Assembly (NCBI GenBank): GCA_018692355.1
Contig: JABHKE010000202.1
Location: forward strand, 1-37,603
Source: Fidelibacterota bacterium
GTDB lineage: Bacteria; Fidelibacterota; Marinisomatia; Marinisomatales; UBA1611
Reading direction: 5' to 3'
DNA length: 37,603 nucleotides
Shown: positions 29,032-37,603 of the stretch, piece after piece
Layout of the letters: each line of letters opens with the position of its first letter
Position numbering within the stretch: position 1 is the first letter of the stretch
Notes under the pieces: generated by a model
Told to the model about the DNA's origin: nothing
Seen by the model: the letters and a program-made list of their open reading frames with translations, nothing else
Databases searched by the model: none
Made by a program: the position numbers and the translations under genes

Positions 29032-30054
29032 TTACGATGGAGATTTTGGTAATAATTGATCTAACCTTTCTGTTAATTTTTCAATTGTTAAATTTTTATT
29101 TAATATAAGTCCATCAGGATTTATCAGAAAATTTTGGGGAATGGCCATGACACCGTAATTCTTAGATACTTGTCCCCAGCCATCCAATTTGGATAAATGT
29201 GTCCAGTCCAACTTATCATCTTCAATGGCTTTCAGCCATCGATCCCGACTATCATCAACTGATAGGCTGATGATGGTGAAGTTCCTATCTTTGAACTGGT
29301 TATGCAGTTTCACCAAATCGGGGCTCACTTTTCTACAAGGGCCGCACCAGGATGCCCAGAAGTCTAGTAATATTGTTTTCCCTCGGAAATCGCTTAAGCT
29401 TACATCGATTCCATTGACATCGGGCACAGTGAAATCAGGTGCTGATTTAGATTTAGATGTGGCTTCTAATGTTTTAAATAATGTGGATACTTGATGAAAA
29501 TATTCTGATTGTTTCACATCTGACGAAAAGCCTCTCATTATGGCCTTCATTGTATCCAAAGATATTTGATTTACCTGAAATTGGTAATAAGCAACGAAAG
29601 CAGAAAAAGTATAGTCATTTTTATTAAGCATTAGGTTCATTCCAGTTTCTTTTTCAAAAATAGCGTCTAAAGAGATCGAATGAAATAAACTATCTTCCCG
29701 TGAGCCTGAAATAGTTACATTTTCCAATGAATCAATATTCCCAACAATTTTAATTTTGGAATTATCCAGAAAAAGATGAATGGGACCAAGCGAGTCATTC
29801 AAAAATATTGAATGGAGATAAGGGCTTTCGATTGTACCTGAGAAGGAAAATGATCCATTGATAATCTGGGATGAGTCTACATCAATTTTCTGATTCGTAT
29901 CCAAATCCAGCTTAGATAAAACAGCTTGCCCATTTTCTAATGAATTAATATGACCCTGAATTATAAATCCACTCTCTTGGTCAGGTGCACAAGAGATTAC
30001 AAATAAAATTGAAAAAAGATTAAATATGGAAATAGAATATTTCATTCTATACAA
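29032..30054 (-). CDS. TlpA-like thiol-disulfide lipoprotein with DUF4369
   Basis: A 340-residue lipoprotein: signal with lipobox ISCA (cysteine about residue 22), a DUF4369-like beta domain (about 30-125), a helical linker and a C-terminal thioredoxin domain with WASWCGPCRKVSPDL (CxxC), PDFTVPDVNGIDVSL and cis-proline region VMAIPQNFLI. This type is abundant in Bacteroidota and acts as periplasmic reductase, for example in cytochrome c maturation. Start at 30054 or at Met4 (30045) are both possible. It is convergent with the operon at 23.7-28.8 kb. Confidence 0.9.
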   Translation of the reverse strand: MYRMKYSISIFNLFSILFVISCAPDQESGFIIQGHINSLENGQAVLSKLDLDTNQKIDVDSSQIINGSFSFSGTIESPYLHSIFLNDSLGPIHLFLDNSKIKIVGNIDSLENVTISGSREDSLFHSISLDAIFEKETGMNLMLNKNDYTFSAFVAYYQFQVNQISLDTMKAIMRGFSSDVKQSEYFHQVSTLFKTLEATSKSKSAPDFTVPDVNGIDVSLSDFRGKTILLDFWASWCGPCRKVSPDLVKLHNQFKDRNFTIISLSVDDSRDRWLKAIEDDKLDWTHLSKLDGWGQVSKNYGVMAIPQNFLINPDGLILNKNLTIEKLTERLDQLLPKSPS

Positions 30055-30195
30055 AATGTGATGAAAGATTGATGAGTTTCTGCATCATCCTGAGCACCAC
30101 TACCCGATAACACAACACCTACTTTTGGCATGATTAGTTCCCCTTAGGCTATTCAGTTTTTTGATTTATTTAATTATTGACCATCTTCGCCTTAC

Positions 30196-31116
30196 TCAGA
30201 GTGACGAATTATTTTCAATATTCCTTTTTAATCCAACAAACTTGGTTCTCTTTACAGCGGATCCTTTAAATAATTTACGAAATTTATCTTCATCCAGATT
30301 TTGCCAATCTTCATTGGTCCAATTTAAAATTTCTTGTCGTGGTTGAAATTCTGGAATATTTGATGTCTCAGAAAATTTTTCATTCCATGGACATATATCC
30401 TGACAAATATCACATCCATAGATCCAACCCTGGAGATCATTTTGATTTTCAGGCAATTTGCCACGATGTTCAATAGTCAAATAGGAAATACATTTCCCCG
30501 CATCGATTTGATATTCATCCAATGCTTGCGTGGGACACGCATCAATACAGGCTGTACAACTCCCGCAAAGATCGTCATTAAATGGGGCATCATAATCCAA
30601 TTCAATATCAAGAATCAATTCCCCAAAAAAAAGCCAACTTCCATGATCTCTCGTGATCAAATTCGTGTGTTTCCCCAACCAACCAAGCCCTGCTCTTTGT
30701 GCCCAAACTTTATCCATTACAGGGGAAGTATCCGTACATACGACTCCCTTCACATCCTGATGAGTTTCTTTAATCCAGCCCAATAATTGGAAAAGTCGTT
30801 TTTTGATCACATCGTGGTAATCATCTCCCCAAGCGTAATTAGATAATTTGTAGTCTGAATGAATATTAGACTGATCCTTCCCTACAAAATAATTAAGTCC
30901 AATCGATATGACTGATTTTGCTTCAGGAAAATAGGTTTGGATATCACCACGTTCTTTTTTCCTTTTAACAATCCATTCCATGGTGGCATGGCGACCTTGC
31001 ATAAGCCAGGATTCAAGATCAGTTTTTTCTTTGGGGGTTGGTTCTGCTTTTGCGATCCCCACCTTATGAAACCCAAGTTCCTTTGCTTTTTTCTTTATAG
31101 ATTTGGATGAAATCAT
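30196..31116 (-). CDS. queG: Epoxyqueuosine reductase
   Basis: Cobalamin- and 4Fe-4S-dependent enzyme for the last step of queuosine synthesis in tRNA. Ferredoxin motifs CGSCTACIDACPTQAL and CDICQDICPWN are both present, as is the cobalamin-domain YFVGKDQSN ... YAWGDDYHDVIKKR and the family signature DTSPVMDKVWAQRAGLGWLGKHTN. The protein is 306 residues, shorter than the ~380 of E. coli because the C-terminal HEAT-like part is absent, as in many FCB members. It is divergent from the TrmH-type gene with 23 bases between starts. Confidence 0.95.
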   Translation of the reverse strand: MISSKSIKKKAKELGFHKVGIAKAEPTPKEKTDLESWLMQGRHATMEWIVKRKKERGDIQTYFPEAKSVISIGLNYFVGKDQSNIHSDYKLSNYAWGDDYHDVIKKRLFQLLGWIKETHQDVKGVVCTDTSPVMDKVWAQRAGLGWLGKHTNLITRDHGSWLFFGELILDIELDYDAPFNDDLCGSCTACIDACPTQALDEYQIDAGKCISYLTIEHRGKLPENQNDLQGWIYGCDICQDICPWNEKFSETSNIPEFQPRQEILNWTNEDWQNLDEDKFRKLFKGSAVKRTKFVGLKRNIENNSSL

Positions 31117-31139
31117 TGGATGTAATTTAAATTAATAAA

Positions 31140-31790
31140 ATGACCCCTGAACGATTCCAAAAGATAAAAGATATTTTAAACAAACGTCAACCAGACTTGA
31201 CGGTAGTTTTGGATAATGTCCATAAGCCACACAACCTTGCTGCCATTATTCGTTCTTGCGATGCGGTTGGTATCAGTGATATTCATGGAATCTCTTCTAA
31301 TGAACAGAAAGTGGGTGTAAACTTAAAATCTGCCAGTGGATCAAACCATTGGGTGAACCTTCATATCCATCATTCTATACCAAATGTAATCTCTGAATTG
31401 AAGCAAAGTGGTTTTTCTATTTATGCTGCCAATGGCAGTGCAAAAGCGATTGATTATCGTAAAGTTGATTATACCAAACCATCTGTCATCGTGTTGGGTG
31501 CTGAGTTGGATGGAATTTCACCGGAAACTTTGGATATGGTAGATGAAGAGATCAAAATTCCCATGCAGGGTATGGTGGAAAGCTTGAATGTGTCTGTGGC
31601 GAATGCAGTTATTTTGTTTGAAGCCCAAAGGCAAAGACTACAAGCAGGATTATATGAAAAGTGTAGGTTGGACAAAAATACGGTTGAAAAACTTCTGTTC
31701 GAGTTTTCTTATCCTGAAGCGGCAAAGGTTTACCAATCTACAGGAGAAGATTATCCGAAGTTAGATACTGAAGGACAGATTATTTCCTGA
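31140..31790 (+). CDS. trmH: tRNA (guanosine-2'-O-)-methyltransferase, SpoU/TrmH type
   Basis: SPOUT methyltransferase that 2'-O-methylates G18 in the tRNA D-loop. N-terminal VVLDNVHKPHNLAAIIRSCDAVGI (motif 1), VLGAELDGISPE (motif 2) and IPMQGMVESLNVSVANAVILFEAQRQRLQAGLY (motif 3, deep trefoil knot). 216 residues is typical of the TrmH clade with its C-terminal helical tail. Paired head to head with queG, another tRNA-modification gene. Confidence 0.9.
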   Translation: MTPERFQKIKDILNKRQPDLTVVLDNVHKPHNLAAIIRSCDAVGISDIHGISSNEQKVGVNLKSASGSNHWVNLHIHHSIPNVISELKQSGFSIYAANGSAKAIDYRKVDYTKPSVIVLGAELDGISPETLDMVDEEIKIPMQGMVESLNVSVANAVILFEAQRQRLQAGLYEKCRLDKNTVEKLLFEFSYPEAAKVYQSTGEDYPKLDTEGQIIS

Positions 31791-31978
31791 CCGATATTGG
31801 TTTTATACCGAACATAGGCCGCAGCCAATGTATTCTTTTAACTATTTCATAGCCTATAAAACAACCTCCGAAAGTCATTACATTGATCAAAATAAATTGA
31901 AGGAACGCAAAAAATATTGTGATGTCTGATTCTGTATATCTCGGAATAAAATCAGTCTAGAAACCAAGATTGCCAGGT

Positions 31979-32366
31979 TCAATCTATTCTGAATGTGCAA
32001 ATTTCTGGTTTCTTAAAAATCCAGTGCCTGTATTTGGCTACAAATCGGTAAATCATATCGCGTATTGGTAGTGGAATAAGCCAAGAAATAAAAAACCATA
32101 TCTTCCAGTGCCACCTCAAGTAAAGCAGACACCGTATTGCCGCTGCAGATCTGATATAAGAACGGCCATTCCTCAATAGGTAAACTGAATCAGACATCTG
32201 TTGCCATTCAGGGAATGTATGAATTAGTTTTTGAGCATCATCTGACTTTATAGGCCTATATGCAATATCAGCACCTGGTGCCAGTCTTGGGTCCATGAAA
32301 AATGCTCTGGTGGCATAGGCCACAATCCCCATCCAGTAGTAGGACATCTCTGCTAGAATCCAGCAT
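31979..32366 (-). pseudogene. DCC-family (DUF393) thiol oxidoreductase-like gene, frameshifted
   Basis: The DCC family is named for the DxxCxxC motif. Starting at ATG 32366, the reading is MLDSSRDVLLLDGDCGLCHQ, which holds the motif (DGDCGLC). The frame then breaks in a five-base homopolymer (A5 at 32298-32302 on the + strand, T5 in the gene). With four T the frame continues as FMDPRLAPGADIAYRPIKSDDAQK ... RSYIRSAAAIRCL ... PIRDMIYRFVAKYRHW, the normal DCC body, to the stop at 31979. Without correction only 122 C-terminal residues are read and the motif is lost. Either a real one-base insertion or a homopolymer sequencing/assembly error. Confidence 0.85.
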
Positions 32367-32395
32367 TTATATAGCCATACCCAAATCTATCCCAC

Positions 32396-33550
32396 TTATT
32401 TTTGGAATTGAAAATTGTTTTCTATATTGGCTGCCATAACTCGTTTATAATTTGATCGGTCAGTATCTCCTTCCGTATTGATAACCAAAACTGTTGATGT
32501 TTTATTCAAACAAATTTTCTCTTTGAAGGTATTAAAATCATGCTTCTTACAAAGTCCTATCAAAGCACCCAAACCACTTGCTCCAGATTCACCTGAAATA
32601 ATTACTGGGTCTCCGGATACAGGAGAAGCTAATGTGATCATTGCTTCTTCTGATAATTTATCTGAAATCGATATAGATCCTACCAGGCCATTCTTCAATA
32701 TATTCCAAGCCAAGGTTGATACTGAGCCACAATTTAGTCCTGCCATGGTTGTTGTTTCGTCATTTTTAACTGAAACTCGATTTCCAGTTTTTATTGATTC
32801 AAATAAACAGTTGGCAGAGTGAGGTTCTACACTAATACAGGCAGGAGGATTCTGCCATTCTTTCATTATATAACCAATGATTGAAGCTGCCCAACTTCCT
32901 ACACCCGTTTGGAGAAACAATACATCGATTTTTTCTTTCCCTATTTGCCTAGTAATCTCATGCATCTGAGTCCAATACCCTTTCATGATATCTAGTGGGA
33001 CATCTTCATACCCATCCCAAGCTGTATCTTGTATCAAAGACCAAAAATGTTTCCCAGATTTATTATTAGCTTCATCCACACGTGTGCTCGCCATCTTTAC
33101 AGCAATATCATAGGCTTGATCTATCACAAATACATCAGCCCCTTCTTGTTCTATTGCTCTTACTCTGTCAGAAACGGTTCCTTGAGGCATATAAATAAGA
33201 GCCTTTCGCCCTAGTTTTCTAGCCATCCATGCTACTGCTCGACCATGGTTCCCATCAGTAGCGGTGCAAAATGTTTTTATTTGCGGATTTTTTTCTATTT
33301 GCCTATACATTGCATATGAAGCACCTAAGGCCTTAAATGCATTAATTCCAAATCGATGGCTTTCATCTTTTAATAAAAGGCTCCCGATACCTAAACGCTT
33401 AGCTAATCCAGGTAGTTTGACCAAGGGAGTTTCTTTGTTGCCTATTGTTTCATGAAAATCTGCTACTTCTTTCGGATCCCAGGATGAATTGTACAATGTC
33501 TGTTTTACATCCCTTAAGCTAAAATTATTGTTTTCTATGACACATATCAT
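32396..33550 (-). CDS. dpaL: Diaminopropionate ammonia-lyase
   Basis: PLP-dependent beta/alpha-lyase (EC 4.3.1.15) that converts 2,3-diaminopropionate to pyruvate and two ammonia; also active on D-serine and related amino acids. The PLP lysine lies in ESHRFGINAFKALG (about 59-72). TATDGNHGRAVAWMA, QDTAWDGYEDVP, QTGVGSWAASI (phosphate-binding) and GLNCGSVSTLAW are family-specific. 384 residues is normal. It lies 29 bases downstream of the frameshifted DCC gene start, on the same strand. A catabolic role is likely. Confidence 0.92.
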   Translation of the reverse strand: MICVIENNNFSLRDVKQTLYNSSWDPKEVADFHETIGNKETPLVKLPGLAKRLGIGSLLLKDESHRFGINAFKALGASYAMYRQIEKNPQIKTFCTATDGNHGRAVAWMARKLGRKALIYMPQGTVSDRVRAIEQEGADVFVIDQAYDIAVKMASTRVDEANNKSGKHFWSLIQDTAWDGYEDVPLDIMKGYWTQMHEITRQIGKEKIDVLFLQTGVGSWAASIIGYIMKEWQNPPACISVEPHSANCLFESIKTGNRVSVKNDETTTMAGLNCGSVSTLAWNILKNGLVGSISISDKLSEEAMITLASPVSGDPVIISGESGASGLGALIGLCKKHDFNTFKEKICLNKTSTVLVINTEGDTDRSNYKRVMAANIENNFQFQK

Positions 33551-33621
33551 TTTGCGTTTCCTAATGATTTAATCAATGCAATTTACCAATATCCACTCAC
33601 ATGGTTATTTACACCCGACAT

Positions 33622-33643
33622 CTTCTTCTATTTTAAACTGACT
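33622..33643. repeat. 22-base direct repeat, copy 1
   Basis: Matches 36477-36498 with one mismatch (C/T at position 17). It begins CTTCTTCTATTTTAAA. One copy lies just upstream of the hypermodification-like gene and the other directly beside the tRNA fragment, 2.85 kb apart. It could mark the ends of an inserted segment; chance in AT-rich DNA is possible. Confidence 0.55.
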
Positions 33644-33667
33644 TATTGTTTTAAAATTGATACTTGA

Positions 33668-34552
33668 ATGAATAAATTTCACAATCCTTATGCCACAGCA
33701 CTTGATGGATTAATTCTGGATGATCCTGTCTCTGCTTTTTTTGATTTTTGCCGCGAAAGAGAAAACATTCGCTTAGAAAGAGAAATGGGTGCTCCTGCCC
33801 CATGGACCGATAATCTTATTTTTCAACAAGGTCGTTTCCTGAACGTATTTAGAGAAGACGACCGCGGCAGCAAAGCCATACTGCACTTTGCCAAAAACTT
33901 AGAAAAAGATTTACCCAATTTAATTCATGCTCTATTTTTTGCACGCTGGTGTAATAGACAGGAAACTCTTGATAAACTTTCATTAAAAATTATATCTCAA
34001 CCCAAAGAATTAATTCAAAAACTAGATAGACTCAATCCTTGGTGTAATGTTACAGCTTACCCTGTTGAGCCGGTGCATTGGGCAGGCAAACAATACTCAC
34101 GGTTCGATGCGGCTACAACACTTTTTGGAAACATTAAAGAATCGTTAGCTGATGCTATCACCGGAGCTCAAGGTGACGTGATCGAAGCTACCAAATCGGT
34201 AAATGCTCTATTTAGAATGCAAAATGACTTCCCGATTTTTATGGCTGTCATTGATTTGGCCTGGTTTCGTCCTGATGTGATTGACCCGGCAAGCCATGTC
34301 CCTACAGGTATTGGTGCTGTAGCTTACCTTAATCGACTTCAGATACATTTTGGCTTAGATAATCATCGGCAAACGTGCGACCGAATGATTACGCTGCAAA
34401 AAGAATTCTGGCCAGAAGCTAAAAGGGCATTTCAACCCATTGATATTGAATATTTATCCTGCGAGTGCAGGAAATATTATAGCTATGTTAATGGGACAAA
34501 ACTTTTTGAAGGGAAAAATCGCTTCCACCCTAAAAGTTACATGGATAAATAG
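33668..34552 (+). CDS. Putative DNA-thymine hypermodification-type helical protein (HMUDK / aGPT-pyrophosphorylase-like)
   Basis: A 294-residue, mainly helical protein. The N-terminal region FFDFCRERENIRLEREMGAPAPWTDNLIFQQGRFLNVFREDDR matches the pattern ER..I...R..G.P.PWT.D.I....RF.NV.RE.D that I know from the helical domain of phage 5-hydroxymethyl-dU DNA kinases and alpha-glutamyl/putrescinyl-thymine pyrophosphorylases (base-hypermodification enzymes). A cysteine pair (LSCECRKYYSY) lies near the C terminus. There is no P-loop. No methylase, TET/JBP or phage structural gene is close by, so the substrate is unclear. The gene's last 130 bases are repeated 1,025 bases downstream. ATG at 33668 lacks a clear ribosome binding site. 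Confidence 0.6.
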   Translation: MNKFHNPYATALDGLILDDPVSAFFDFCRERENIRLEREMGAPAPWTDNLIFQQGRFLNVFREDDRGSKAILHFAKNLEKDLPNLIHALFFARWCNRQETLDKLSLKIISQPKELIQKLDRLNPWCNVTAYPVEPVHWAGKQYSRFDAATTLFGNIKESLADAITGAQGDVIEATKSVNALFRMQNDFPIFMAVIDLAWFRPDVIDPASHVPTGIGAVAYLNRLQIHFGLDNHRQTCDRMITLQKEFWPEAKRAFQPIDIEYLSCECRKYYSYVNGTKLFEGKNRFHPKSYMDK

Positions 34553-34620
34553 CCGTACCCATCGAGTTATGAGACCGACCTAAATCCACAAAAAAAAACC
34601 ACGAATGTGGGGCTTGATGG
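34401..34620. repeat. ~220-bp direct repeat, copy A
   Basis: Spans the last ~150 bases of the hypermodification-like gene plus its downstream terminator. The second copy (35426-35646) is about 90% identical over the coding part. The copies are 1,025 bases apart and enclose the ferritin-like gene. Confidence 0.85.
34598..34615. terminator. Terminator module, copy 1 (degenerate)
   Basis: CCAC-GAAT-GTGG with an A-tract on the left and GGCTTGAT after. Other copies have a longer CCCCAC/GTGGGG stem. Serves the convergent hypermodification-like and ferritin-like genes. Confidence 0.6.
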
Positions 34621-34712
34621 TTTAAAAGATAAATTTATTTCAGTAGGGCACCATACGAATGTGGTCAGTCTATTTAAAACTTTCATTTTTTAGTACTAAT
34701 AAACAATTAGCC

Positions 34713-35333
34713 TTATTCCCATAATCCATGTCTCTTTATATATTTATCGGCGTTAATAGCTATTTCCCTTACTAATCCTTCCAACTTTTTTAGTCTTTCT
34801 AATTCTTGAAGGTATACCTCTTCAATCACCTTGCGATATCTGTTTCTTGCTTCATCTACCGCCGACTTGTCTAATTGTGTATCAAGCCAATTTGTAATCC
34901 ACCCAGCATGACTTTCCTCTTTTATGATCTTATGGAAAACATTTTTCACGTCATCTGATACGCCTTTCGTGTCCACATAAACTTTATAGTGAAGAAGTGC
35001 GACTGGTTCAAACGCCTCGGTCATTGCAAGAACTTCAATCTCACTTTTAGGGAACCCTGCTTTTGCATAATAGTGACTCCCTTTTTCATCATGTGCAGTA
35101 ATAGATCCACCATTTTTTTCTAGGAGTGTTGTTATATATGACGCGTGACGAATTTCCTCTGCGCTGTGATGGATCAGCTTATCTCTCAAGAAGTTATCTT
35201 TTGCTCGTCTCGCATATTCTCCAAGAATAAGTCCTCCAACTAGCTCTGACTTAGCATACGAAGATAATAGTTTTTTTTCTTCTATATCCATTAAATCCAA
35301 AAGGTTAAAATTATTTGTAAACGCTATATCCAA
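34713..35333 (-). CDS. Ferritin-like diiron protein
   Basis: A 206-residue all-helical protein. ELVGGLILGEYARRAKD, HHSAEEIRHASYI, MTEAFEPVALLHY and KEESHAGWIT supply the two E...ExxH half-sites of a carboxylate-bridged diiron centre. The C-terminal helix is charged (EEVYLQELERLKKLEGLVREIA). It is related to ferritin-like oxidases or oxygenases; no particular enzyme is recognised. It lies in the middle of a duplicated segment and is read towards the hypermodification-like gene. With four terminator modules around it, it looks like an insertion. Confidence 0.75.
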   Translation of the reverse strand: MDIAFTNNFNLLDLMDIEEKKLLSSYAKSELVGGLILGEYARRAKDNFLRDKLIHHSAEEIRHASYITTLLEKNGGSITAHDEKGSHYYAKAGFPKSEIEVLAMTEAFEPVALLHYKVYVDTKGVSDDVKNVFHKIIKEESHAGWITNWLDTQLDKSAVDEARNRYRKVIEEVYLQELERLKKLEGLVREIAINADKYIKRHGLWE

Positions 35334-35356
35334 ATCTACTCATCATCCCACCAAAC

Positions 35357-35380
35357 AAAAAACCCCACTAATGTGGGGCT
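35357..35380. terminator. Terminator module, copy 2
   Basis: AAAAAACCCCAC (loop TAAT) GTGGGG, stem 35363-35378, with a GGCTTGATGTTGT flank. On the minus strand the A-tract becomes a U-tract, so it best ends leftward transcription, yet it lies upstream of the ferritin-like gene. Confidence 0.7.
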
Positions 35381-35425
35381 TGATGTTGTAATGCGCTTAC
35401 TTTAAAACTTGGCTTAATTCTATAT

Positions 35426-35646
35426 AAGAATTCTTCCCAGAAGCTAAAAGGGAATTTCAACCGATTGATATTGAATATTTATCCTGCGAGTGCAGGAAAT
35501 ATTACAGCTACGTCAATGGGACGAAACTTTTTGAAGGGAAAAATCGATTCTATCCTAAATAGATTATAAATAAATAGTGATACTCATCGGGTTATGAATT
35601 CGAACTAAATCCACAAACAAAAAACCCCACGAATGTGGGGCTTGAT
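35426..35646. repeat. ~220-bp direct repeat, copy B, with a gene-tail remnant
   Basis: 35426-35562 reads as the C terminus of the hypermodification-like gene (PEAKREFQPIDIEYLSCEC ... LFEGKNRFYPK stop) but has no upstream part. Coding changes between the copies are mostly synonymous or conservative, so the lost gene was once under selection. The terminator CCCCAC-GAAT-GTGGGG at 35625-35640 lies at its end. Confidence 0.85.
35619..35640 (-). terminator. Terminator module, copy 3 (after the Gre factor)
   Basis: CCCCAC (35625-35630), loop GAAT, GTGGGG (35635-35640), with an A-tract on the left. On the minus strand this is a stem followed by U-rich sequence, 22 bases downstream of the greA stop. 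Confidence 0.85.
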
Positions 35647-35661
35647 TTATTCAATAAAAAA

Positions 35662-36141
35662 TCATTCTGCAGAAATATTTTCAATTGCAGTAATTGTGAA
35701 CTTTGTCTCTTTACCCCGGATTTCAAGCGTAAAATTTTCATCAATCTTTTTCCCAACTATAGCTTGGCCAAAAGGTGAATGGTAGGTTATAACCAAGGGA
35801 TACAGATCCAACTCAAATTCGATGGGACCTAATAGGTAATAGTCTTCGGCCTCATCTTTGCCCTCTTCACGGATTGTTACCTTATTACCAAATCCTACCT
35901 TGTCGGTTTCAATTTCGCTAAACTCGATGATCTGGAATGGAGAATGGGTCTGTAGCGATTGTGTCTTACGTATTATAAAACTCTGCTCCTCCCTGGCAGC
36001 GTGGTATTCCCCATTTTCCTTAAGATCACCATGACTAGCTGCATCTCTAATCTTTAATGAAGTCTCTTTCTTTGATTTATCAAGAGATTTCATTTTCTTT
36101 TCCAATGCGCTGTGTGTATCCCGCAAAATCAAAGTCGCCAT
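35662..36141 (-). CDS. GreA/GreB transcript cleavage factor
   Basis: Rescues backtracked RNA polymerase by stimulating transcript cleavage. N-terminal coiled coil with the acidic tip DLKENGEYHAAREEQ (metal-holding D and E), then the C-terminal FKBP-like domain (YPLVITYHSPFGQAIVGKKIDENFTL). The start chosen is ATG at 36141 (MATLILRDTH), with AGGAAT eight bases upstream; 32 codons upstream to 36237 are open but unrelated. At 159 residues it has GreA length. It is the more conserved gene in an otherwise scrambled stretch. Confidence 0.88.
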   Translation of the reverse strand: MATLILRDTHSALEKKMKSLDKSKKETSLKIRDAASHGDLKENGEYHAAREEQSFIIRKTQSLQTHSPFQIIEFSEIETDKVGFGNKVTIREEGKDEAEDYYLLGPIEFELDLYPLVITYHSPFGQAIVGKKIDENFTLEIRGKETKFTITAIENISAE

Positions 36142-36424
36142 ATCGATATTCCTATTATTGATCGGATTAAATAAATTGTTCGAGGGAATATTCCCAAATT
36201 TTTTCCAGGTATGCCCTGCCCCAGTAGTTTGTACCACTTAGTAATTTAGTGGTTGAGATTGCAATTGTCTGCAATTCAGGAGAAAAATTAAGTCAAAGAA
36301 AAAGCCCAATCAAGTGCTTGTTTCTCGTCGTCTAGCATGGATATCTACAGAATATTTTATATCGTCTGGAAACGTGAAAGAAAAAGCATCAACTTCCCGA
36401 CAGGAAACCAAGGCTGTTGTAGTG
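36142..36424. other. Non-coding stretch between Gre factor and tRNA fragment
   Basis: 283 bases with no convincing gene. It contains GATTGCAATTGTCTGCAATTC near 36257-36277 (a short imperfect direct repeat). Nothing else was identified. Confidence 0.4.
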
Positions 36425-36470
36425 TAGCGGGGGAAGGATTCGAACCTCTGACCTTTGGGTTATGAGCCTC
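36425..36470 (-). tRNA. 3' fragment of an initiator-Met-like tRNA (CAU anticodon)
   Basis: On the minus strand this reads GGCTCATAACCCAAAGG, then GGTTCGAATCC (T-arm), then CCCCCGCTA (3' acceptor side). That is the anticodon loop CAU, the variable loop, the T-arm and the acceptor 3' strand of a tRNA-fMet or elongator Met; GGCTCATAACCC and the CCCCCGCTA acceptor best fit the initiator. The 5' acceptor strand, D-arm and most of the anticodon 5' stem are missing, so it is not functional. Such 3' tRNA halves are left at one end of elements inserted into tRNA genes. Confidence 0.75.
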
Positions 36471-36476
36471 ACGCAG

Positions 36477-36498
36477 CTTCTTCTATTTTAAATTGACT
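36477..36498. repeat. 22-base direct repeat, copy 2
   Basis: Directly beside the tRNA fragment; one mismatch from 33622-33643. Confidence 0.55.
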
Positions 36499-36523
36499 GG
36501 AGAGCGAATGGACGCCGATTTAT

Positions 36524-36562
36524 CCCACAAACAAAAAACCCCGGGTGACCGAGGCTTGATGT
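36524..36562 (-). terminator. Terminator module, copy 4
   Basis: CCACAAACAAAAAACCCC followed by GG-GTGA-CC and GAGGCTTGATGTTGTG. The stem is CCCCGG/CCGAGG with one mismatch. It lies 17 bases downstream of the stop of the T9SS-tailed gene, so it ends that transcript. Confidence 0.75.
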
Positions 36563-36578
36563 TGTGAAAAGGGTAAAT

Positions 36579-37406
36579 TTATTTCAGCAGTATCATCTTT
36601 TTGGTCTGGACATAATTGTCAGCTTCTATTCTATACAAATACAAACCAGCACCCACAGGCTCATCAGAATCATTGGTTGCATTCCATTGGGTAGATTTGT
36701 ATCCGGCATTTTGATGACTACTGACCAATGTGCTGATATGCCTGCCTGTGATATTGTATATGGTAATATTAACGAGCCCATCTTCAGGTAACTCATAGCC
36801 AATAGTTGTGGATGGATTGAATGGATTTGGGAAATTCTGATGAAGTGTAAATCTCTGGGGAAGTATCTCATTTCTGTTATCAGTCCCGACAGAATTTGAA
36901 TAGAAGCTAATATTATCAAAATATATTATGTTGTCTTGAGTTCTACCACCCAGGTTAAAATCGGGAAAAACAACAATCTGATCAATACCAATAGCTTCAA
37001 GAAGGCCAATATGACTTGAAAAATCAAAGGTCAATTCTTCCCATGCATTGGTTACAGTGTTAGCAACTTTGATTTCTCCAAGTGAACCGCTAGATGGAAT
37101 TACAAACTTAAGACCGACATCACTGATTACGGTTTTATATACCATAATTTTTAGTATGCTATTGGTAGCATCTAGCGAGAATGTCCCAATATCTGAACCG
37201 TGCAGGGATTCGCAGCCTGCCCAAGGTTGACCAGCCTGTAAAGCAGTAAACTTTGCTACTGTAGTTGATGAATTGACACTGTCAGTATTTGGATTTGTAA
37301 CTATTTCAAGGGGAGGATTACCACCATTCTCGAAGACGGTCCAGGTCCAAGTGGCATCATAACCACCGATTTCAAAATCAATCGGAGAATTTTGCGCTAA
37401 AACCAT
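36579..37406 (-). CDS. Secreted protein with Por/T9SS-type C-terminal sorting domain
   Basis: A 275-residue product. Residues 1-165 form a jelly-roll-like beta domain (IDFEIGGYDATWTWTVFENGG ... DQIVVFPDF ... DNIIYFDNISF), of the type seen in carbohydrate-binding modules of polysaccharide-degrading enzymes. The last ~85 residues are a type IX sorting tail: LHQNFPNPFNPSTTI, GYELPEDGLVNITIYNITGRHI, GAGLYLYRIEADNYVQTKKMILLK. The listed start (MVLAQ) gives only the end of a signal peptide; a signal-like frame MYSKNKTLLVLFYMLLK begins at 37465 in another frame and would need a frameshift near 37400-37410. The start codon is therefore uncertain. Confidence 0.8.
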   Translation of the reverse strand: MVLAQNSPIDFEIGGYDATWTWTVFENGGNPPLEIVTNPNTDSVNSSTTVAKFTALQAGQPWAGCESLHGSDIGTFSLDATNSILKIMVYKTVISDVGLKFVIPSSGSLGEIKVANTVTNAWEELTFDFSSHIGLLEAIGIDQIVVFPDFNLGGRTQDNIIYFDNISFYSNSVGTDNRNEILPQRFTLHQNFPNPFNPSTTIGYELPEDGLVNITIYNITGRHISTLVSSHQNAGYKSTQWNATNDSDEPVGAGLYLYRIEADNYVQTKKMILLK

Positions 37407-37603
37407 TCCCCACTTTTTAAAAGCATATAAAATAAAACCAGCAATGTTTTGTTTTTTGAATACATAATTTCTCTTTTTTATTTATTGGTCAAGTCCAAAA
37501 AGTTCTGTAAAATGAATCAAAAGGTCACAGTTTTTCCGCCTGCGATTTTTATTTTTACAGCAGGCTGATTTACGATTTTGGTTTCTTTTCTTTTTTCAAG
37601 CAA
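37407..37603. other. Upstream region of the T9SS-tailed gene
   Basis: 197 AT-rich bases up to the window end. The only feature is the out-of-frame hydrophobic reading from 37465 (minus strand), which looks like a signal peptide for the preceding entry. No promoter is assigned. Confidence 0.35.

Follow-up and report, generated by a model that had tools for sequence, protein, structure and literature searches.

A kinase-less HMUDK_hel clade of marine bacteria: tRNA-Met-flanked cassettes and a possible role in the recognition of modified thymine

Introduction

In phages, HMUDK_hel proteins belong to gene clusters for the post-replicative modification of thymine in DNA (PMC6449724). The HMUDK_hel protein of these clusters is encoded directly after a P-loop kinase and before a dUMP hydroxymethylase, and the copies of hypermodifying phages (M6-like Pseudomonas phages, Bordetella phage CN2, Delftia phage PhiW-14 and Bacillus phage SP10) adjoin the kinase, ADDT and the dUMP hydroxymethylase or, in the case of SP10, are fused to a kinase. 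It is through this phage kinase link that the family has been annotated, PF18723 (HMUDK_hel) representing the helical domain of 5-hmdU DNA kinases. Here, a strongly conserved clade of the family without kinase is described from abundant uncultured ocean bacteria.

Two groups of defence proteins offer further points of comparison. Validation in E. coli has linked a domain of the 5-hmdU DNA kinase type, from the DefensePredictor systems, to phage defence (PMC13092281). The likeness of these systems to the marine gene lies in the description of a '5-hmdU DNA kinase'-related domain, and the multi-gene context given there for them is absent around the marine gene. As for the Brig glycosylases, they are reported to counter phages whose bases are modified, and the target of Brig2 is modified thymine (PMC13160076). 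Brig1, Brig2 and Brig3 resemble the working mode proposed below, namely the flipping and excision of phage-modified bases, but they show weak homology to uracil-DNA glycosylases and not to HMUDK_hel, and the analogy is a functional one only. Regarding the surroundings of the gene, additive islands with repeats of tRNA ends, as well as tycheposons anchored at tRNA-Met, are known in Methylophilaceae (PMC10872708).

Family membership and missing partners

The DNA under study, hereafter the window, is the whole stretch of 37,603 nt formed by positions 1-37,603 of contig JABHKE010000202.1 of a Fidelibacterota bacterium, and the relatives compared with it were Neomarinimicrobiota, Actinomarina and others. 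The protein encoded at 33668-34552 (Table 1) has HMUDK_hel as its sole Pfam match by hmmscan, with 70.1 bits against a curated cut-off of 25 bits and with residues 22-271 aligned to positions 5-272 of the 281 of the profile; it also matches phrog_2396 in PHROGs (E 1e-25). The membership in this family, which had been predicted from the letters of the DNA, is borne out by the profile score, by the conserved residues and by the fold match described below. Likewise, the pattern of the ER...PWTxD...RFxNVxRExD type that had been noticed there is genuine, since its key residues (R31, P45, R56-F57, N59, R62, E63 and D65) show no variation in an alignment of 38 homologues from marine bacteria and phages. 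When plasmid relatives are added, N59, R62, D65, Y131, F188, D196, G214, G216, C265, E266 and K269 stay essentially constant, and R31 and D259 (N or E in a few) are also kept across the marine clade and the phage and plasmid relatives. The motifs R..PW, RFxNxxRExD, D.., GxGA and CExxK are invariant or nearly so in marine and phage members and mostly in plasmid members, and the retention of the residues common to the three groups indicates that the common site of the family is intact in the marine protein.

Table 1. Positions of the HMUDK_hel gene and of the cassette features that surround it in the window
Feature	Position	Strand	Remarks
Left cassette boundary, degenerate tRNA-Met-derived repeat	33592..33621	+	aligned with intact copies in L023, L024 and L025
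Unit common to the window and G036 (locus L054)	33620..34600	+	gene and short flanks; 92.5% over 982 nt
HMUDK_hel-family gene, without kinase domain	33668..34552	+	294 aa; PF18723, E 2.6e-19
Right cassette boundary, repeat TACCCATCGAGTTATGAGACCGAC	34556..34579	+	3 mismatches to the 24-nt motif
Ferritin-like gene (tentative), next cassette	34713..35333	-	sub-threshold ferritin matches
Truncated second HMUDK_hel remnant	35426..35574	+	last ~50 codons, 84% aa identity
Third repeat copy	35581..35604	+	6 mismatches
greA-like gene between third and fourth repeats	35662..36237	-	GreA_GreB 1.6e-16, GreA_GreB_N 4.8e-13
tRNA-Met scar, anticodon arm to 3' end, 5' half missing	36424..36470	-	91% to the intact tRNA-Met of the genome
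Fourth repeat copy	36449..36472	+	7 mismatches; continuous with tRNA-Met 3' half

The marine protein shares the Pfam family, the invariant residues and the predicted fold with the proteins of the hypermodifying phages, but it is only 24-28% identical to them, belongs to a separate clade and, unlike the phage copies, never adjoins the partner genes. This was manifested in searches with the proteins of phages CN2 and Ab18, carried out on 33 viral loci and 38 cellular loci (527 kb). The viral loci yielded the kinase in 26 of 33 cases, the hydroxymethylase in 31, ADDT and the radical SAM enzyme in 23 each and the PALP enzyme in 17, whereas kinase, ADDT, radical SAM, PALP enzyme and dUMP hydroxymethylase were all found at 0/38 cellular loci, that is, the window and 37 others. 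The lack of the usual partner genes noted by the original prediction is therefore true well beyond the window, and a hypermodification role is not supported; the region 33668-34552 is not a hypermodification locus. It could still be argued that the protein truly hypermodifies DNA (or tRNA), with its kinase and the remaining partners encoded at distant sites of the same genome. All the family-wide residues are kept, the genomes are incomplete, and the kinase model PF18748 is of limited sensitivity, as the kinase of phage Ab18 reaches only E 0.006. Nevertheless, this model found no kinase in 61 relatives and 5 further genomes, while it was recovered in the control phage CN2, and together with the empty count of nearby partners this makes distant partners quite improbable. 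The window has a PALP gene of its own in the neighbourhood, of the diaminopropionate ammonia-lyase type, which was considered as a linked partner because phage clusters have PALP too; it was discarded, as it has no counterpart at the 37 other loci.

Predicted fold and proposed activity

The AlphaFold model of the protein, obtained with a 38-row alignment, is confident (pLDDT 90.5, pTM 0.87). In Foldseek comparisons it matches phage HMUDK_hel proteins with E values of 4e-7 to 1e-4, prob 1.0 and TM 0.60-0.71 on the query, the proteins of PhiW-14, phiRSL1 and SP10 standing at E about 1e-6. The next matches are ADDT (E 2.8e-4) and aGPT-Pplase1 (E 1.4e-3), both with prob 1.0. The likeness to these amino-acid:DNA transferases is found at the fold level, but neither a family-model match nor profile-profile support accompanies it for the marine protein (0.3-1.2% in hhalign with the aGPT-Pplase/ADDT profiles). 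Accordingly, the kinship with the aGPT-Pplase family that had been proposed from sequence is reduced to a relation of fold, Pfam giving no match and hhalign no significant one.

In the PDB, no significant structural match to the model was obtained, and a search by sequence found no solved relatives. The most recurrent, though weak, PDB match is the queuine salvage hydrolase Qng1/DUF2419, which releases queuine (prob 0.2, TM about 0.25-0.29, without profile support) and has been described as structurally similar to DNA glycosylases (PMC9406330). The profiles of HhH-GPD (0.1-0.4%), Qng1 and ADDT all remained below 2% probability in hhalign, at or below unrelated controls, with shallow alignments. 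By eye only, G-x-G-A and D259 resemble the hairpin and catalytic-Asp motif of HhH-GPD proteins. Assignment to the glycosylase superfamily by profile comparison was not significant; as nothing rose above the unrelated controls, the glycosylase relationship is a lead and not a result.

The common residues, the fold and the role of the family in phages point to the binding of 5-hydroxymethyl-pyrimidine in DNA and, because no kinase is at hand, the protein would act alone. Tentatively, and with somewhat less than even confidence, we favour a combined reading in which it works on its own, flipping bases to read or remove modified thymine for the purpose of defence or repair. The kinase-less HMUDK_hel protein would bind DNA and flip out a modified pyrimidine of the 5-hydroxymethyl-uracil type, and the flipped base would be either excised, in which case the protein might be a glycosylase, or marked, by the protein alone or with the help of general base-excision repair. 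Substrate, base flipping, catalysis and biological role are what we infer in this reading. The most likely benefit would be protection against phages with modified thymine, the repair of oxidised thymine being a close alternative. A precedent exists in the Brig glycosylases, one of which is directed against modified thymine (PMC13160076), although they are of another family. The link to phages is an indirect one, since PADLOC gives no match for the marine gene, none of the defence genes tested lies beside the marine copies and peptide patterns of the marine clade retrieve no relatives from IMG/VR. Should recognition of modified thymine prove to be a property of the helical protein by itself, the function of this part in the phage enzymes would be accounted for, and the repertoire of marine bacteria could include a further protein of defence or repair that recognises bases.

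Distribution and genomic settings

The gene is present in 39/245 Neomarinimicrobiota genomes, and the search for related loci added Actinomarina genomes and one Planctomycetota MAG as further carriers. All the marine copies form one clade (support 100/100) on a long branch, apart from the phage and plasmid-borne proteins; this is a kinase-less, mobile and marine clade of HMUDK_hel. It is under strong purifying selection, with dN/dS 0.25 (0.0467/0.189) against a 91%-identical copy in the genome G036 and about 100 near-invariant columns. A link of the gene to the sunlit ocean or to UV was also considered and discarded: rhodopsin and photolyase track the gene poorly, the genome of the window has neither of them, and a rhodopsin-rich family (f16) is without the gene.

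In most of the other lineages the gene is placed outside any recognisable cassette, among housekeeping genes, and it often overlaps or nearly touches a gene of the same strand. At L048 and L056 (also at L043 and L050) it is found between tdh (threonine dehydrogenase) and a glycine C-acetyltransferase (kbl)-like gene, the start of which it overlaps at L048 and L056. The location of the gene within housekeeping operons in some lineages, those of tdh-kbl and of the pyrimidine genes of Actinomarina, also fits a role in metabolism or repair. In this regard, the protein might serve solely in housekeeping repair, as a glycosylase of oxidised thymine (5-hmU, 5-formyl-U), and play no part against phages, as would be consistent with the strong purifying selection, with the same-strand overlapping or near-overlapping placement behind housekeeping genes in several lineages and with neighbours that are neither viral nor defence genes. 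However, its patchy presence and frequent transfer better fit an accessory gene, ordinary HhH-GPD glycosylases are already present in 30/31 relatives and the fold link to glycosylases is unproven, all of which leaves a pure repair role unlikely.

Another alternative concerns the level at which the enzyme works. Its substrate could be a free modified pyrimidine nucleotide or nucleoside instead of DNA, in a manner comparable to Qng1, which frees queuine from queuosine monophosphate. Besides the recurrent though weak structural match to Qng1, this is consistent with the Actinomarina setting, where the gene ends a pyrB-pyrC-carAB-pyrF-pyrD run and overlaps a short ORF (pyr names read from the sequence by eye), and with the distant plasmid relatives, which adjoin MazG/MazG_C pyrophosphohydrolase and thymidylate synthase genes. 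Against it, the clusters of the phage relatives modify thymine in DNA post-replication (PMC6449724), a MazG_C homologue is found at 0/37 marine loci and the pyrimidine-operon setting is limited to Actinomarina. An enzyme of free nucleotides is thus rather doubtful, and the stand-alone reading or removal of modified thymine in DNA is retained as the preferred account.

Some observations on these settings can be added. At the Actinomarina loci L034 and L036-L039, the HMUDK_hel gene comes last, after pyrB-pyrC-carA-carB-pyrF-pyrD-like genes and the short ORF, and its overlap with this preceding ORF is 19 nt. Eight Neomarinimicrobiota genomes (L113-L120) encode proteins of ~600 aa in which an N-terminal PfkB sugar kinase-like part is joined to a C-terminal Q_salvage (Qng1) match, possibly a one-protein queuosine salvage enzyme that would first phosphorylate and then release queuine; the genomes in which HMUDK_hel adjoins tdh make up 4/8 of them. 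The plasmid-borne HMUDK_hel proteins of Gloeothece and Sinorhizobium (L201 and L204) are annotated as 'nucleotide kinase domain-containing protein' and are encoded directly next to a MazG-MazG_C protein, with CBASS phospholipase, TIR and Nmad2 genes nearby in Gloeothece and two thymidylate synthase genes in Sinorhizobium. Like the marine proteins, they are cellular, accessory and without adjacent kinase, but they are 19-25% identical to them, and the MazG_C partner and the defence context are theirs and not those of the marine clade.

Horizontal transfer and the tRNA-Met cassette array

The copy of the window is 91% identical in protein and 92.9% in DNA (dS 0.19, dN 0.047) to that of G036, a genome of a different family (f5), and only 57% identical to that of G004, which belongs to the same genus. 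RNase G, encoded on the same contig, shows the reverse pattern, with 59% identity to the other family and 86% to its own genus, and this opposition implies horizontal transfer of the HMUDK_hel gene. The agreement of RNase G with the genus also supports the cellular location of the gene, and contamination of the contig was dismissed as unlikely, RNase G being 86-89% identical to its counterparts in the genus. The mobility that the original prediction had offered as one option is directly demonstrated by the identity contrast with RNase G and by the cassette boundaries.

The homology between the window and G036 ends at both limits of a common unit (Table 1), precisely where copies of a repeat are placed; apart from short repeats, the rest of 30000-37603 has no match at the G036 locus (L054). 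The repeat CACCCATCGGGTTATGAGCCCGAC is the complement of the anticodon arm of tRNA-Met, and its copy at the left boundary is too degenerate for the motif scan. Elsewhere, four copies are present at L023/L054, two at L024 and two at L025, the motif scan also finds the repeat in another contig (G000:C189), and shuffled sequence has practically no copies. At L024 the repeat runs on into the whole 3' half of tRNA-Met, directly upstream of the HMUDK_hel gene. The intact tRNA-Met is located at positions 344-418 of another contig of the genome of the window (G000:C121), while ARAGORN finds no tRNA in the window itself. Three G:C pairs follow one another in the anticodon stem of this tRNA-Met, as is characteristic of initiator tRNA. 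The tRNA scar noticed earlier in the window is real, corresponding to the half of tRNA-Met from anticodon to 3' end, and is explained by the tRNA-Met-arm repeats that flank the cassettes. In about a third of the genome of the window (728 kb), the repeats were found only in such clusters, at one single site and in the tRNA itself; one exact 21-mer of the cassette repeat gave no match in IMG/VR. Within each of the arrays at 33592-36472 of the window, 6629-10219 of L054 and 1706-2665 of L196, the repeats are all in one orientation.

The HMUDK_hel cassette of the window measures ~0.96 kb and is part of a small array of mostly single-gene cassettes. The intervals of the window contain HMUDK_hel, the ferritin-like gene with an older HMUDK_hel remnant behind it, and greA; those of G036 contain a DEAD-box helicase, HMUDK_hel and AMP nucleosidase, and that of G000:C189 a sulfotransferase-like gene (helicase and sulfotransferase named by eye). 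The neighbour that had been called a diiron ferritin-like protein does exist as a gene, but its ferritin identity is tentative, because the matches are sub-threshold (EncFtn-like 0.088; TIGR04535 2.8e-4, far under the cut-off). A search for the HMUDK_hel/ferritin-like pairing elsewhere found it at 0/37 other loci. The ferritin-like gene, without homologue at any of them, was rejected as a conserved partner. A second, 86%-identical occurrence of the 3' end of the HMUDK_hel gene and its downstream flank (34401-34618) is found at 35426-35646, which reveals a truncated second copy beyond the ferritin-like gene. This remnant is as diverged from the copy of the window as the genes of other species are, and could be the trace of an older allele or of an earlier cassette insertion.

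Like the tRNA-anchored additive islands and tycheposons (PMC10872708), for which tRNA-Met is a known anchor, the array consists of accessory genes set apart by direct repeats that derive from a tRNA segment. It differs in that tycheposon-type elements repeat the last 20 bases of the tRNA, whereas the array of the window repeats the anticodon arm, holds mostly one gene per interval and has no adjacent recombinase. No tyrosine recombinase was found beside the array, the nearest being about 30 kb off at 2003-2905. This XerA/IntI-like enzyme, encoded on the minus strand (NF040815, 1.7e-66; integron integrase model below cut-off), is a possible but unlinked candidate for the mover of the cassettes.

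As most of the other lineages are without a recognisable cassette, the cassette accounts for the gene in the window and in its closest relatives but not in the family as a whole. Since the window and three near relatives have the gene in a cassette and a truncated copy persists nearby, the gene might be taken for a passenger without selected function, carried by the mobile cassette system. This is highly improbable in view of a dN/dS of 0.25 or lower, of the near-invariant columns and of the many lineages that keep the gene outside any recognised cassette. Returning to the reader or remover of modified thymine, a fuller and bolder version can be conceived, possible although on balance unlikely, in which the HMUDK_hel protein of Neomarinimicrobiota and Actinomarina would constitute an undescribed single-gene system by which modified thymine of the phage type is recognised and either excised or marked, and would owe its spread in part to integron-like arrays of one-gene cassettes recombining at copies of the initiator-tRNA-Met anticodon arm. 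The tRNA-Met cassette array represents in itself a concrete path along which single genes cross from one family of marine bacteria to another. A 4.5-kb contig labelled Pelagibacteraceae (CAJXBA010000050.1, locus L025), which may be misbinned Neomarinimicrobiota, has a copy 81% identical to that of the window, together with the same repeats and a neighbour of the DEAD-box type.
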